Source: Candidatus Coatesbacteria bacterium RBG_13_66_14
GTDB lineage: Bacteria > RBG-13-66-14
Length of the DNA stretch: 12,117 bases
NCBI GenBank assembly: GCA_001774505.1
Contig: MFAF01000034.1
Span: 12,842-24,958, forward strand
Reading direction: 5' to 3'
Below the pieces are notes generated by a model. It saw only the letters and a list, made by a program, of their open reading frames with translations. It had not been told where the DNA came from and did no database searches. The first letter of the stretch is position 1. Every line of letters begins with the position of its first letter. Below, in pieces: positions 2-10,237 of this stretch. The translations under genes were made by a program, and so were the position numbers.

Positions 2-1465
2 ATGGTCAACCAGAACACCTGCTTCCAGGCGGAGGCGTGGCAGAACGTCATCCGGTACGGCAAGTTCGAGTTCTGGCCGGAGGGGATAGACGCGCCGCCG
101 GAGGGCTGGCAGCTCTACGGTGCCCCGACGGCGGTGGAGCGGGAATCCGGCGCGGGGAACGTCCGGGTGGGGAACTACTCGGTGAAAATTACCACCGGCG
201 GGGCCAACCGCGGCATCAAGTACGCCGTCCCCAACTTCCGCGACTACCTGGGCAAGGTGTTCACCGTCTCGTGCTGGGTGAAGCAGTCCACGGCGGGGAC
301 CGTGGCGATCACCGTTGACGACGGGGTGGGGACCACGACCGGCCTCGCCGTCGTCCTGAGCGGGAACTTCCAGCAGGCGTTCTGCCGCCACACCATGGCC
401 GCCGCGGCGACGAAGCTGGAGGTCATCATCGCCTCGGTGGGGACCGCGCCGACCTTCTACGTGGACGAATTCTCGGCCTACGAGGGGACGATGCTCAAGG
501 CATACTCCCGGAGCCCCGAGGGGTCCATCGCCGAGCACGACGTAGTTCCGGTCAACCTCCTCTTGAATGCCGACTTCGAGCACTGGGCGGACGCCGCCGG
601 GATGGCGGACCAGTGGGAGAACTACACCGCCGCCGCCGTGTCCGCGCCCAATGCGGACGCGCACTTCGGCAACCGGAGCCTGGAGATAACCGCCGCGGCG
701 GCCATCGGCCAGGGGGCGTGCCAGCGCATCGGGGCCTTCTCCGACGTTCTCGCCTTCCTCAGAGGCAAGACCGTCTGCTTCAGCGTGTACGTGAAGGAGC
801 TGACGCCGGGGACCTCCCGGGAGTTCGCCCTGACCATCGAGGACGGCGTGGGCTCGACCGGCATCTCCTTCGATCAGGACGACTACGCGGACTGGACGCG
901 GCTGTGGGTGGTCCACACGGTGGACGCCGCGGCGACGCTCCTGACGGTCTCCGTGACCGCGAACCAGGCGGTGGTCGTGGCGGGGCTCCTGGCGGACTCG
1001 GCCTGCCTGAACATCGGCTCCCGGCCGATGCCCTGGTCCGGCAACATGCCCTCGGTCTGGTCGCCCGTGCGATACGGATTTTTTAAGAGCGGCGCGGTGA
1101 CGACCGGGACCTACCTGGACGAGGCCTGGCCCGTGCCGGAGCGGTTCTACCCGACGCGGCTGGACGTTTACTGGCTTCTCGGCCCCACCAGGATTCTCCC
1201 GGCGGGGAACACGGACGCCGTCCTCTACACCGGTGTCCGCGGGGCCGCCCCGGCCTCGACCGGGTTTTACGTCCGGGTGGCCGCCGAGCTGGCCCCCGAC
1301 GCGGACGGCGTGGGCGCCTCGGCGACGCAGATACCGGCTGCGGCTGAGACCGACGTGACGGCGGAGCTGAAGTACCTCCGCATCTACGTGGACAATGTGA
1401 GCACCTCCGCCAACCCGCAGACGCCCAGCGTGCTCCTGACCGGCTACACGCTGGCGCTGCCGTAG
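2..1465 (+). CDS. Phage tail/appendage-like protein with two tandem carbohydrate-binding-like modules (5' end possibly outside window)
   Basis: The reading frame is open from the window edge, so the ATG at base 2 may be internal and the protein (at least 487 residues) may be longer. Two modules of about 150 residues follow each other (roughly 17-162 and 186-338). Each opens with an aromatic N-x-x-F-E-x-W type strand (KFEFWPEG; NADFEHWAD), continues with a 'GN-S-I/L' strand (VGNYSVKIT; FGNRSLEIT), and has a near-identical hairpin (ITVDDGVGTTTG; LTIEDGVGSTG). This is the pattern of jelly-roll, CBM4/9-like beta-sandwich domains. The C-terminal third (about 355-487) is a separate beta-rich domain. 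Downstream genes form a phage lysis-like cassette, which suggests a virion tail or receptor-binding role; that is inference. A secreted glycan-binding protein is the alternative. An SD-like AGGAGG overlaps the stop and serves the next gene. Confidence 0.6.
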   Translation: MVNQNTCFQAEAWQNVIRYGKFEFWPEGIDAPPEGWQLYGAPTAVERESGAGNVRVGNYSVKITTGGANRGIKYAVPNFRDYLGKVFTVSCWVKQSTAGTVAITVDDGVGTTTGLAVVLSGNFQQAFCRHTMAAAATKLEVIIASVGTAPTFYVDEFSAYEGTMLKAYSRSPEGSIAEHDVVPVNLLLNADFEHWADAAGMADQWENYTAAAVSAPNADAHFGNRSLEITAAAAIGQGACQRIGAFSDVLAFLRGKTVCFSVYVKELTPGTSREFALTIEDGVGSTGISFDQDDYADWTRLWVVHTVDAAATLLTVSVTANQAVVVAGLLADSACLNIGSRPMPWSGNMPSVWSPVRYGFFKSGAVTTGTYLDEAWPVPERFYPTRLDVYWLLGPTRILPAGNTDAVLYTGVRGAAPASTGFYVRVAAELAPDADGVGASATQIPAAAETDVTAELKYLRIYVDNVSTSANPQTPSVLLTGYTLALP

Positions 1466-1473
1466 GAGGCATC

Positions 1474-1776
1474 ATGCCTTGGCGCTGGGCGAGAGATGAA
1501 TGGTGGGCGGGCGACAAGCTCGGCCACTTCTTGGGGGGGCTGGCGAGCCCCCTTCTTCTGTGGGCCGTGTTTCACCTCTGGCGCGGCTGGTGCGTCCTGG
1601 GCTCCCTGGCTTTTTGGTGGCTGTGGGAGGTCAAGGACGTGTACATTCCGTACGAAAAGTACGGTTGGCTCGGAGGCGACGGGTTCAGTTGGCGGGACGC
1701 CCTGGCCTCGTCCGTCGGCATCTGGTTCGGCTGGATGATCCTGGAGCTGTTCGGCTCCTGCCTGCCGGGGGCGTGA
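1474..1776 (+). CDS. Small DUF2279/YfiM-like membrane protein of the phage cassette
   Basis: This 100-residue protein starts at an ATG eight bases after the preceding stop, with TAGGAGG just upstream. The N-terminus has the sequence WWAGDKLGHFLGG (residues 10-22), matching the 'DK-x-x-HF' signature of the YfiM/DUF2279 group. A hydrophobic segment (about 24-48) follows, then WEVKDVYIPYEKYG, and a second hydrophobic stretch (about 79-97). The 'W-E-x-K-D' acidic patch after the first helix is also typical of that group. Small proteins of this kind are found both in bacterial envelopes and in phage late regions; their function is unknown. Its place directly before a holin-like gene and an endolysin suggests a lysis or membrane role here, which is inferred. 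Its stop overlaps the next start by one base. Confidence 0.6.
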   Translation: MPWRWARDEWWAGDKLGHFLGGLASPLLLWAVFHLWRGWCVLGSLAFWWLWEVKDVYIPYEKYGWLGGDGFSWRDALASSVGIWFGWMILELFGSCLPGA

Positions 1777-2120
1777 TGGAAGAGAAAACGGTTGAGCGGC
1801 CCAAGCTCTTCAACTTCAACGGCGGGATAGAGTTCGGCCAGCGGCTCTTCGGCTTCCTGCTGATCGCCCTCCTCGCAGCGGTGGCGCTGGTGCTCCACGC
1901 CTGCGGGGTCATCGGCGAGGGGGCGTTCAACGCGGCGATTGTGACGGCGGGGACCGTGGCGGCGGCGCTCGCCGTCGGGCGCTCCATCCAGAAGGCCGCC
2001 CGGGAGAAGGCCGGCGGGGAGATTGACGACGCCACGGGGAACGCCATCATCGAGGCCGTGGGAAAGGCCGCGCCGCAACCGAAGGGAGGCGGGGGCTTTG
2101 GAGACGGGAAATCTGTTTGA
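1776..2120 (+). CDS. Two-helix holin-like small membrane protein
   Basis: The start is the ATG that overlaps the preceding TGA by one base (TGATG), giving 114 residues. There is a hydrophilic N-terminus (about 1-24), a strong transmembrane helix (about 25-46, LFGFLLIALLAAVALVLHAC), a short turn (GVIGEG), and a second Ala-rich helix (about 52-68), followed by a charged Lys/Glu segment and a Gly/Lys tail. Size, helical hairpin, charged C-terminus and position immediately upstream of a peptidoglycan peptidase fit a class II holin, which would permeabilise the inner membrane and release the endolysin. No specific holin family is recognised, so the function rests on architecture and context. The 3' end overlaps the endolysin start by 23 bases. 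Confidence 0.55.
   Translation: MEEKTVERPKLFNFNGGIEFGQRLFGFLLIALLAAVALVLHACGVIGEGAFNAAIVTAGTVAAALAVGRSIQKAAREKAGGEIDDATGNAIIEAVGKAAPQPKGGGGFGDGKSV
2083..2089 (+). promoter_or_regulatory. Ribosome binding site supporting a TTG start for the endolysin
   Basis: AGGGAGG lies eight bases before the TTG at 2098 and inside the 3' end of the holin-like gene. It decides between the TTG start and the unlikely upstream ATG at 2023, and it implies translationally coupled expression of the two lysis genes. Confidence 0.6.
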
Positions 2121-2667
2121 CATCCCCCGCGACCTCGCCCGGCCCCGAGAGGGCCGGGTTACTTATGTGCGGATGAAGGGGACCGGGCGTCTCATCGAAA
2201 CGCTGGACGAGTGGAAGGTCCGCGTCGTGACGCTTTACGGCGGCGACCCGGCGGGTTTTCTGGTGGCGAACTCCTGCTACCGCCCGAAATCCGACCTCGA
2301 GCCCGGCGGCCCCGGCCCGGAGCCCGGCGTGGATCGGGCCAGCTACCCCACGGACTACACCGACGCCAACGGCCACTGGACAGGCTGCGCGGTGGATTAC
2401 TCCGCGCGGCTGACCGCCGAGAGCTTCTGGGGAAGCCTGTGCCCCAAGTGGTGCCGGGACGACATCCGGGACAGCCTCGTCGCCGCGGGGCTCTTCCACC
2501 CCTGGTACTACTACCGCTCCTGGGTCGAGGGGTACTTCAAGATGCACGAATACTGGCACATCGCCGTCGAGCTCACCCCCTGGGAGCAGGCCCATGCCTA
2601 CCGGGAGACGCCGCCGCACTGGTACGACGGCTTGCGGCCCGGCTCGACCGCCATCCGTACCCATTGA
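2098..2667 (+). CDS. Phage endolysin, M15-family zinc peptidase (D-Ala-D-Ala / L-Ala-D-Glu type)
   Basis: A longer frame begins at 2023, but its first 25 codons lie wholly within the upstream gene. A TTG at 2098 sits eight bases after AGGGAGG (2083-2089) and gives a more natural 189-residue protein. The M15 zinc site is visible: H93-W-T-G-C-A-V-D100 matches 'H-x-x-G-x-A-x-D' (His and Asp ligands), and E151-Y-W-H154 matches the catalytic 'E-x-W-H' (general base Glu, third ligand His). Such enzymes cut cross-bridge or stem peptides of peptidoglycan. There is no signal peptide, so it would depend on the holin-like protein upstream. A Pro/Gly-rich stretch (about 67-80) and an aromatic C-terminus are present. 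Exact bond specificity cannot be read from the sequence. M15 carboxypeptidases of the host are the alternative, but they normally carry export signals. Confidence 0.75.
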   Translation: METGNLFDIPRDLARPREGRVTYVRMKGTGRLIETLDEWKVRVVTLYGGDPAGFLVANSCYRPKSDLEPGGPGPEPGVDRASYPTDYTDANGHWTGCAVDYSARLTAESFWGSLCPKWCRDDIRDSLVAAGLFHPWYYYRSWVEGYFKMHEYWHIAVELTPWEQAHAYRETPPHWYDGLRPGSTAIRTH

Positions 2668-2697
2668 GGGTACGAGCGTACCCGTTTTGGGTACACC
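2656..2697. repeat. Two tandem 21-base palindromic units across the endolysin stop codon
   Basis: Unit one (2656-2676) and unit two (2677-2697) share the layout CGTACCC-5 bases-GGGTAC. The four arms alternate in orientation at 2657-2662, 2668-2673, 2678-2683 and 2689-2694 with an exact 21-base period. GGGTACG (2668-2674) can also pair with CGTACCC (2677-2683) across a two-base gap, so alternative hairpins compete. The first unit contains the TGA stop. No poly-T follows directly, so a simple terminator is unlikely. A protein-binding site or an mRNA processing or regulatory structure is possible. Confidence 0.6.
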
Positions 2698-2720
2698 CGT
2701 AGCTGTTAATAAAAAGGGGA

Positions 2721-2766
2721 AAGTGAGCGACAACGGGATTTGCCGCTAAAAAGTGAGCGGCAACCC
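2721..2766 (+). repeat. Direct repeat and stem-loop before the small membrane protein gene
   Basis: AAGTGAGCGACAAC (2721-2734) and AAGTGAGCGGCAAC (2751-2764) are direct repeats 30 bases apart with one mismatch. The second copy also forms a stem: TTGCCGCT (2740-2747) pairs with AGCGGCAA (2756-2763) over an eight-base loop, extended by GGG (2735-2737) with CCC (2764-2766) around a two-base bulge. The stem ends two bases before the AGGAAGG ribosome binding site of the gene at 2780, so it could affect that gene's translation or mRNA stability. Confidence 0.5.
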
Positions 2767-2779
2767 CAGGAAGGATAAA

Positions 2780-2905
2780 ATGAACGACGGGGCAGGCAAG
2801 TGGCGCTGGATTTTCTGGACCATCTTCGTCATCGCCGTGGTGGCGGTGTTCTTCCTCGTCGGCTGGGCCCTCGACTGGTGGTCGGTGGGAGGTCTGTTCC
2901 TCTGA
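2780..2905 (+). CDS. Tiny single-pass membrane protein (41 aa)
   Basis: A short ATG frame is preceded by AGGAAGG (2768-2774) at five bases spacing and ends in a TGA that overlaps the next ATG (TGATG). The peptide has a short charged N-terminus (MNDGAGKWRW), one long hydrophobic helix (about residues 10-31) and a Trp-rich end (ALDWWSVGGLFL). A good ribosome site, coupling to the next gene and high hydrophobicity support real coding despite the size. It may be a second holin, an antiholin or another membrane component of the lysis cassette; no family is recognised. Confidence 0.55.
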   Translation: MNDGAGKWRWIFWTIFVIAVVAVFFLVGWALDWWSVGGLFL

Positions 2906-3156
2906 TGAGCGACGGCAACGGCGAAAAACGCTGGCTGACGTGGCTGGTCCGCGTCATCGTGCCCGCGCTGATCGCGGCGCTCTGGTTGAGCCTGTCGGCC
3001 CAACTGGACGACCTGCGGTGCGAGGTCCGGGAGATGCGCGCCGAGGTGCGCGACGAGCTGAAGTCGCAGCGGCTCGTCAACCGGGAGCAGGACGGGCGTC
3101 TAGCCCGGCTGGACGCGGAGGTCGGGCTCCTGCGGGACGACGGCCGCGGTGATTAA
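2905..3156 (+). CDS. Membrane-anchored coiled-coil protein, i-spanin/XhlA-like
   Basis: The start chosen is the ATG overlapping the preceding TGA; a frame extending further upstream would consist of shadow sequence of the 41-residue gene. The 83-residue product has a basic N-terminus (MSDGNGEKRW), one transmembrane helix (about 11-30, LTWLVRVIVPALIAALWLSL), and a strongly charged helical region (about 33-78) with Leu/Val at heptad-like spacing (LDDLRCEVREMRAEVRDEL and later LARLDAEVGLL). An N-terminal anchor followed by a coiled coil matches the layout of Rz-type inner-membrane spanins or small XhlA-like phage proteins. No outer-membrane partner (Rz1-like lipoprotein) was found. The last 57 bases overlap the 3' end of the opposite-strand Gx gene, suggesting the element's edge. 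Confidence 0.6.
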   Translation: MSDGNGEKRWLTWLVRVIVPALIAALWLSLSAQLDDLRCEVREMRAEVRDELKSQRLVNREQDGRLARLDAEVGLLRDDGRGD

Positions 3157-9511: not shown

Positions 9512-9555
9512 GCCCCCGTCCGTGTTAATTCGAAGATTCAGCGACCGTCACCGTT

Positions 9556-9571
9556 AAAAAAGTTCTTTTTT
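9556..9571. terminator. Weak AT-rich terminator-like palindrome after the RHIM-like gene
   Basis: AAAAAAG (9556-9562) and CTTTTTT (9565-9571) form a perfect seven-base palindrome about 30 bases beyond the stop of the minus-strand gene at 9601. The stem is A/T only apart from one G:C pair, so termination would be weak; it may simply be AT-rich island sequence. Confidence 0.3.
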
Positions 9572-9600
9572 CTTACATTTGCGTGAATTTGCTATTGCGA

Positions 9601-10119
9601 CTATTCACCAAGCACAGATTTTATTATAGCTCCTGCGCTTGCACCTAGTATTGCGGTTACAATGGGATGCTTAAGAAAAGTTGCGAGACGCGATTTTACT
9701 TCTTCTTTTTGTTCCGGCGCTACGTCTGATTTATCAATAGCATCTACTAATGATTGAAGAACAGAAGATATTTCTTGAATATTATGATCACCAATCTGGA
9801 TAGCATTAGCTTGTTCTATATTGATGTTCGTTACACGCTCACCATGTGTTCTCAGAGAAGTATTTTTACGAATTAATAGTTTCCATTGATCAGGTATCGA
9901 ATGTAGGCCTTTATTAAAAACCGCCTCAAGGATCGTATAAACCTCAATTTTATTGTTTGGTAACACCCGTTCGAGTGTGTCGCCATCGTCTACATCGAGT
10001 TCGTCGTCATTGATGAGATATACTTTATCGCCTTGTACACTAGCCATGTGTGGTCCATTAGCTGTGCCATTTTTTTTTCGAATCGTAATCGAATCATTGA
10101 ATATTTCAGAGAAAGGCAT
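9601..10119 (-). CDS. RHIM-like amyloid-motif protein with a glycine-rich hydrophobic C-terminus, in an AT-rich island
   Basis: The ATG at 10119 is preferred over a TTG at 10146, because AGAGGA lies about six bases upstream. The product has 172 residues. Residues 8-84 form a small, probably all-beta domain (ITIRKKNGT, MASVQGDKVYLIND, DVDDGDTLERVLPNN, KIEVYTIL) of a kind seen in uncharacterised bacterial proteins. Residues 96-113 read VTNINIEQANAIQIGDHN: the I107-Q-I-G110 tetrad and following D-x-N match the RIP homotypic interaction motif, whose cores are IQIG in RIPK1 and VQVG in RIPK3. A helical stretch (115-150) follows, then a hydrophobic Gly/Ala segment (about 152-170, PIVTAILGASAGAIIKSVLG). 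The gene's GC content is about 40 percent, far below its neighbours, which indicates recent transfer. A role in amyloid-based signalling or antiphage defence is inferred; no enzyme motif is present. Confidence 0.7.
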   Translation of the reverse strand: MPFSEIFNDSITIRKKNGTANGPHMASVQGDKVYLINDDELDVDDGDTLERVLPNNKIEVYTILEAVFNKGLHSIPDQWKLLIRKNTSLRTHGERVTNINIEQANAIQIGDHNIQEISSVLQSLVDAIDKSDVAPEQKEEVKSRLATFLKHPIVTAILGASAGAIIKSVLGE

Positions 10120-10157
10120 ACTAGTCCTCTTTGGGTTATGGGTCAATAATTAGACTG

Positions 10158-10215
10158 ACCTAAAAGGTTCGGAATTTAGGTTTTCTGTCTATATTTAACT
10201 CGCTGTTAAATATAG
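10158..10215. repeat. Two inverted repeats upstream of the RHIM-like gene
   Basis: ACCTAAA (10158-10164) and TTTAGGT (10175-10181) form a perfect seven-base inverted repeat. CTATATTTAAC (10189-10199) and GTTAAATATAG (10205-10215) form a perfect 11-base inverted repeat around TCGCT. Both lie 40-100 bases before the ATG at 10119, in the expected promoter zone, so they may be operators. The larger one is also downstream of the GYF/RDD gene, but it has too few G:C pairs and no T run for a terminator. Confidence 0.5.
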
Positions 10216-10237
10216 TAAATAGCAAGCGTGGCCCCGG

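Follow-up and report, generated by a model that had tools for sequence, protein, structure and literature searches.

We found that a gene for a 172-aa protein in the window (the whole stretch of 12,117 nucleotides analysed here, from Candidatus Coatesbacteria bacterium RBG_13_66_14) is of a phage-borne type that rides in prophages as cargo, in the so-called 'moron' position, and that its product joins a predicted beta-barrel, a conserved RHIM-like motif and hydrophobic C-terminal helices. We give an even chance to the reading that this mobile, prophage-type cargo gene encodes an amyloid switch which is contained in one chain, needs no NLR and serves phage defence or superinfection exclusion; as a single gene it may set off cell suicide in response to phage. 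The features of the locus are the following:

9601..10119, minus strand: gene of the RHIM-like protein, 172 aa, ATG start, TAG stop, with a match to phrog_16834
9847..10095, minus strand: predicted N-terminal beta-barrel domain (residues 9-91)
9775..9831, minus strand: RHIM-like motif TNINIEQANAIQIGDHNIQ (residues 97-115), core IQIG at 9790-9801, from conservation and the PDB profile search
9610..9795, minus strand: C-terminal helices (residues 109-170) of the AF2 model, with a hydrophobic, putatively membrane-active last stretch (152-170)
9554..10229: inserted segment of 676 bp, 36.8% GC, holding this gene only, from comparison with the congener G001
10189..10215: perfect 11-bp inverted repeat with a 5-bp loop, about 70 bp upstream of the gene, a candidate operator

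A single-gene insertion

The sequence-only reading had delimited the gene correctly: it runs on the minus strand from 10119 to 9601 of the window, begins with ATG and codes for 172 aa. The source genome is an assembly of 2.06 Mb in 152 contigs (75.6% complete). Around the gene the GC content is about 38-40%, as opposed to mostly 62-76% over the rest of the contig. In G001 the DNA on both flanks of 9554-10229 aligns at 87% and 91% identity, while the 676-bp segment is absent and about 113 unalignable bp occupy the same site. Searching 60 related genomes (13 from the same phylum, three of those from the same genus) gave no match at E<=0.001. Because of the low GC content, the congener site lacking the segment and the absence of matches in these 60 relatives, the window gene was most likely acquired horizontally, and recently, as a single gene. 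The insert is not flanked by direct repeats of 9 or more bases, and promoter and terminator scans stayed at chance level. At the other end of the window (2-3156) a run of plus-strand ORFs resembles, by eye, phage structural or lysis genes; PDB searches with the ORFs at 2-1462 and 2128-2664 gave no match.

Conservation of the RHIM-like motif

A RHIM-like motif had been proposed from the letters of the protein, and it is indeed present: V96-T-N-I-N-I ... I107-Q-I-G-D-H-N113 (VTNINI...AIQIGDHNIQ), in which I107-Q-I-G110 provides the [IV]-Q-[IV]-G core of RHIMs. When the residues of the protein were shuffled 20,000 times, [IV]Q[IV]G arose in 1.3% of the trials and the longer pattern [IV]Q[IV]Gx[HYN]N in 0.005%; the motif is beyond chance. 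Across 122 family sequences (query included), a sample biased by the choice of candidates through shared 5-residue words and limited to the best 120 of 317 profile hits, the core is among the best conserved stretches of the protein. Position 107 is I, V or F in all 122, Q108 is kept in 121, I or V stands at 109 in 122, and G110, D111 and N113 are kept in 121, 120 and 122, respectively. The residue before IQIG is A in the window protein and G in 106 of the 122 sequences. Three of the best 120 homologues bear the source name 'RIP homotypic interaction motif', and precomputed PF12721 is found on 14 of the best 120. The sequence-only reading had allowed for the IQIG tetrad being unconserved in homologues; instead, the core is conserved in the full-length family.

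The comparison with RHIM models that had been suggested earlier gave a divided answer, as the family profile recovers RIPK1 and RIPK3 in the PDB but the window protein alone stays below the Pfam RHIM (PF12721) cut-off (10.6 bits against 20). Among the barrel-family relatives scanned with the same model P0043 (21.7) and P0097 (22.1) pass and P0119 (19.3) misses, and the member from Cronobacter phage ENT39118 (15.1 bits) also misses. In 369 genomes of the class of Pseudomonas salomonii PF12721 gave two matches at E<=0.01, both in chance-like frames, and two barrel + RHIM members of this class that had been picked up by the family profile escaped it; the Pfam model is thus insensitive to such proteins. 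Over the window genome (75.6% complete, and searched with this profile insensitive to the family) it found no convincing second match. By comparison, a 23-member family profile searched against 177,635 PDB sequences returned 11 matches at E<=10 (best E 0.0038), with RIPK1 ranking first and RIPK3 next: five are RIPK1, three RIPK3, one is a chain of entry 12kl and two are unrelated. This 12kl chain is named 'ribonucleoside-diphosphate reductase large subunit-like' and chain A of that entry is RIPK3; we take the reductase-like chain to be a viral RHIM protein. The alignments with RIPK1 are 18 to 37 residues long and reach N-S-x-G before the core. The window protein alone found no RHIM in the PDB. 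Some other candidates were set aside: IsdB-type matches from the single-sequence PDB search were weak (E 0.42 and above), NCBIfam matches lay far below their cut-offs, and a Pfam EAD10 match (E 0.015, below cut-off) covered residues 97-118 only.

Predicted structure

The all-beta N-terminus and the hydrophobic C-terminus described beforehand were borne out by the structure model and a hydrophobicity count. In the monomer model, built from an alignment without the fragments P0008-P0010 and without P0013 and P0092, the mean pLDDT is 54 for residues 91-100 and 53 for residues 101-110, with residues 97-100 under 50. The motif thus seems not to be buried in a stable globular fold, a possibility that had also been raised against it; judging from pLDDT, the region is predicted to lack a confident fold. 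The RHIM trait of being unfolded before assembly is therefore seen by prediction only, and a helix is predicted from residue 109 on (AF2 helices at 109-130, 135-149, 152-158 and 160-170). In all 119 sequences counted (the three fragments P0008-P0010 left out) the most hydrophobic 19-residue window falls within the C-terminal 45 aa. Over these 119 the Kyte-Doolittle 19-residue maximum has a median of 1.64 and reaches 1.6 or more in 53%, which suggests only a borderline transmembrane helix.

The barrel appears in the model to share its fold with phage neck proteins, the likenesses comprising neck or head-to-tail connector proteins of phiXacJX1, Milano (gp15), 7-7-1, Chi, SPP1, Douge, Pam3 and lambda. 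One of them, the Milano neck 2 protein, is described as building a hexameric ring (PMC10491603). By hhalign no sequence similarity was found between the barrel and the shallow profiles of lambda FII and Milano gp15, a weak comparison because all 80 loci retained for lambda FII lay at 96-99% identity to their query and a single relative was available for Milano gp15.

Prophage loci

The window protein matches phrog_16834 over residues 2-167 (E 5.3e-27, full-length) and phrog_5789 over residues 94-166 (E 4.5e-5); both are groups of phage proteins with no assigned function. Among 50,697 phage records one phage has a member, Cronobacter phage ENT39118 (two records, 90% query coverage), in which the gene lies in reversed orientation between an antitermination gene and the lysis side. 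Scanning viral contigs with the single window protein brought up no relative, and an alignment-guided scan keyed on the motif brought up 23 loci. The neighbour table covers 21 of these (L028 and L039 were left out, as the ORF caller missed their target ORFs), several of which are apparent near-copies of each other. In 15 of the 21 the gene is opposite in strand to its downstream neighbours, which share families. In 14 of these 15 loci the next gene falls into either of two families, the representatives of which match Q antiterminators; on the other side representatives match holin, endolysin or DNA methyltransferase. The remaining six loci show other settings.

This cargo position was overlooked in the sequence-only reading, which is on the whole partly supported: neither of its own two objections held, but phage cargo and mobility were missed. 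It had also passed over the single-gene insertion, the conserved unit of motif and helices and the neck-like fold of the barrel. Its description of the protein as stand-alone fits the window copy, whose insertion holds one gene, and the prophage copies looked at.

Exchange of modules

With Z set to 100,000, the barrel profile matches three TIR proteins encoded on plasmids, at their N-termini, and part of a protein from an Acetobacter plasmid (E of about 1e-15 to 1e-11). The first 90 residues of one TIR protein, used as a query, gathered 31 proteins, 24 of them with a Pfam CAP12/Pycsar TIR domain; the TIR part matches PADLOC PDC-S35 and the group profile matches solved Cap12 (E 5e-4). We found no paper on PDC-S35 in the literature searched. 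The earlier statement that no enzymatic effector is recognizable is right for the window protein, and in other proteins the same barrel carries a Cap12-type TIR. Because of this fusion the N-terminus looks like a sensor or recruitment part. On plasmids, the barrel + Cap12-type TIR gene is followed by genes for a DUF4238 protein and one annotated korC (L053:4995-7530, L009:5001-7545, L010:5001-7545), and the three genes together are a possible defence cassette, judged from their order.

Five of the 31 proteins, of about 203 aa, have a tail NSRVN...DNS with helices behind it in place of the TIR. This tail is Asn-rich, ends in a hydrophobic C-terminus and is weakly similar to PDC-M14B models; the tail of the Acetobacter protein weakly matches AbiTi too. 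A second family (P0148-P0152, L027, L142-L144, L147, L149) combines the barrel with an N-x-R-x-N-x-x-S-x-D-x-S-x-N tail and C-terminal helices; the one member modelled has low pLDDT, and this tail may be another amyloid-type motif.

The RHIM motif and the hydrophobic C-terminal helices are conserved together as one module, which is common to proteins with winged-helix-like N-termini (a fold judged by eye and from weak Pfam matches of one protein). In four of six aligned winged-helix-like proteins [IV] is missing at the first position of the tetrad, and the winged-helix RHIM profile found no RIPK in the PDB, which counts against reading every such protein as RHIM. A six-frame profile sample that was not word-seeded covered four groups of 369, 399, 372 and 375 genomes, whose draws partly overlap. 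Fifteen genomes matched, four of them centres chosen as known members. The 11 non-centre genomes comprise one with barrel + RHIM, six with the barrel and another tail (a loose assignment in L149) and four with a winged-helix-like N-terminus and the RHIM module. Q-I-G is kept in four of the five non-centre RHIM-module cases and the full [IV]Q[IV]G in one, the barrel-bearing one. These counts are lower bounds, because in many larger genomes scoring was confined to 8 or 9 first-look candidates; they indicate that the family is rare and that barrel and RHIM module are separable within it.

Defence neighbours

The window gene has no strong PADLOC match, the best being weak ones to GajA (E 0.0053) and PDC-M14B (E 0.007). 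Module relatives sit on chromosomes and a plasmid, some adjoining defence genes. In L002 a TIR-TM gene is the second gene downstream; in L005 (5157-7893) a kinase/TPR pair matching the PADLOC candidate system PDC-M71A/PDC-M71B lies directly upstream of the RHIM family gene; and in L146 (123-1707) a winged-helix-like RHIM-module gene overlaps the end of an HsdS (type I restriction specificity) gene by 8 bases. A neighbour in L007 is weakly AAA/nSTAND3-like (E 0.005-0.008), and L003, L004 and L006 have no defence-type neighbour among the proteins scanned. In a small control of proteins chosen by hand, PADLOC matches at E<=0.001 turned up for three of ten encoded near the family genes and for one of ten encoded farther off; the three near matches come from two loci, and the near set holds no L006 proteins. 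The sole far match, a DrmC-like protein, is encoded about 3 kb away from the family gene in L002. The expectation that homologues lie next to defence genes thus holds for some relatives (L002, L005, L146) but comes from a small, hand-picked sample. A pattern scan of the neighbours for a RHIM-like core gave only chance-like matches and the L007 target itself.

Proposed mechanism and alternatives

What our computations show is a conserved motif, a linker without confident structure, a barrel, a hydrophobic C-terminus, mobility and the swapping of modules with TIR and winged-helix-like partners. In the switch that we propose, the N-terminal barrel would be the sensor or recruitment part, and a trigger would cluster the protein through it. 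The RHIM-like motif in the flexible linker could then polymerise as amyloid and concentrate the attached C-terminal helices, which would insert into or perturb the membrane, and the infected cell would be stopped. We infer that amyloid forms, that a trigger sets this off, that the helices act on the membrane and that there is a benefit against phages. This reading is supported by the PDB-wide RHIM resemblance, the conservation of the core and a motif without confident monomer structure; by the combinations of barrel with TIR, barrel with Asn-rich tail and winged-helix-like domain with RHIM and helices; and by the 'moron' position, the single-gene low-GC insertion, some defence neighbours and the patchy distribution. 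Counted against it are the borderline transmembrane segment, the winged-helix relatives lacking [IV] or a RIPK match, the fact that six of seven non-centre barrel matches carry another tail and not RHIM, the hand-picked neighbour sample, the near-copy prophage loci and the lack of a strong PADLOC match.

As to what the barrel might sense, it could be a captured or mimicked neck protein serving as bait, which late in the assembly of an infecting phage would join that phage's hexameric neck ring or connector, an idea we regard as a long shot. The ring would bring together six or more linked RHIM-like motifs, the clustered motifs would nucleate amyloid, and this would fire the membrane-active helices or, in the plasmid version, the TIR NADase; if true, this would be a necroptosis-like switch made of one gene and armed by virion assembly. 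Staphylococcal Thoeris, a TIR system, is described as sensing the phage major head protein (PMC11312562) and DSR2 as sensing the tail tube protein (PMC11087589), and a prophage protein blocking tail assembly has been reported (PMC10884400). Together with the hexameric Milano ring, these cases make the idea worth testing, no more.

Several other explanations have to be weighed. The RHIM-like fibre could act as an adaptor that recruits a separate effector (TIR-TM, kinase or NTPase) while the C-terminal helices merely oligomerise. The TIR-TM and PDC-M71A/B neighbours and the weakly AAA/nSTAND3-like one in L007 would be suitable partners; yet by pattern scan they lack a RHIM-like core, the window copy is a single-gene insertion and the prophage copies lie among ordinary phage genes, so that we hold an adaptor to be rather unlikely. 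It is unlikely, too, that the motif is not amyloid at all and that QIG is a short strand aiding a barrel/helix oligomer with a role in, e.g., prophage regulation, the likeness to RIPK1 being convergent. A match of a short motif can be fortuitous, the window protein alone falls short of the Pfam RHIM cut-off and most winged-helix-like relatives have lost the first position of the tetrad; against this, the RIPK1 profile match takes in N-S-x-G before the core over 18 to 37 residues, the pLDDT of the motif is low and its core residues rank with the best conserved positions of the protein.

Finally, the protein could be a phage-encoded RHIM decoy that silences a host cell-death pathway of RHIM or BASS3 type by co-aggregating with it. 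The family is phage-borne, and the use of such decoys by animal viruses is well established, M45 being a viral RHIM protein that acts in this way; ICP6 is also named as a viral RHIM protein. The latter comes from a paper on RHIMs (PMC12133306). We consider a decoy quite improbable, given that the gene is reversed to the neighbouring operon in 15 of the 21 viral loci, as lysogen-expressed cargo would be, that module relatives are encoded chromosomally or by a plasmid and in some cases adjoin defence genes, that the window genome has no second RHIM match of note (Pfam profile, 75.6% complete assembly), and that the same barrel carries TIR, a likely toxic effector. Taken together, the domain order, the exchange with TIR and the mobile cargo position would seem, as far as sequences tell, to fit a suicide switch better than an adaptor or a decoy.

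The family is a compact, testable candidate: one gene of about 170 residues with a RIPK1-like core, carried on mobile DNA including prophages. Should it prove to form amyloid and to block phages, RHIM-type signalling would exist in bacterial mobile elements without an NLR partner. The same sensor domain would then be linked to two effectors, amyloid/helix and TIR, and the gene would be a minimal model in which to study the triggering of an amyloid switch. Whether fungi and bacteria have NLR-independent signalling amyloids is a question raised in a 2021 review of the field (PMC7889193). Among the matches listed in our literature search no paper was titled on a stand-alone or prophage bacterial RHIM protein; subscription papers and preprints lay mostly outside this search, and absence is unproven. 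A Gifsy prophage defence protein was set aside as it is described with an ATPase domain.

Comparison with known systems

Phage neck and head-completion proteins, which the barrel resembles in predicted fold, are encoded in the virion structural cluster, whereas the window family gene lies outside such a cluster, next to Q antiterminator and lysis-side genes in ENT39118 and in 14 viral loci. The CAP12-PCTIR_TIR proteins (PDC-S35) share with the window protein a homologous N-terminal domain (residues about 2-85 of the latter), but have a TIR effector and no RHIM-like core by pattern.

BASS3 is described as a bacterial RHIM-related amyloid motif in NLR/BELL gene pairs, mainly of filamentous bacteria (Dyrka 2020, cited in PMC7889193); it has been grouped with PP and RHIM (PMC12261475), and its core given as G-[IV]-Q-[IV]-G (PMC7885112). 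The likeness lies in a RHIM-related amyloid-type motif in bacteria and a hydrophobic helical part in the same protein. In contrast to BASS3, the window family has a central and not a C-terminal motif, a barrel N-terminus, and a single, mobile gene. The adjacent NLR gene sharing the motif is absent, the insert being a lone gene whose flanking genes recur in the congener at about 87-91% DNA identity, and in place of the BELL architecture, an effector N-terminal to a C-terminal motif, the order is barrel, motif, helices. Without an NLR, with a central motif and with its mobility, the window family is therefore not a member of the BASS3 system.

With the animal RHIM of RIPK1 and RIPK3 (PF12721) the family consensus shares the [IV]-Q-[IV]-G core, N-S-x-G before it and x-x-N after it. 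RHIMs without a confident monomer structure have been described (PMC12133306), and the window protein model is predicted to be of the same kind. RIPK1 and RIPK3 differ in bearing a kinase where the bacterial protein, known here from its sequence, bears a barrel.
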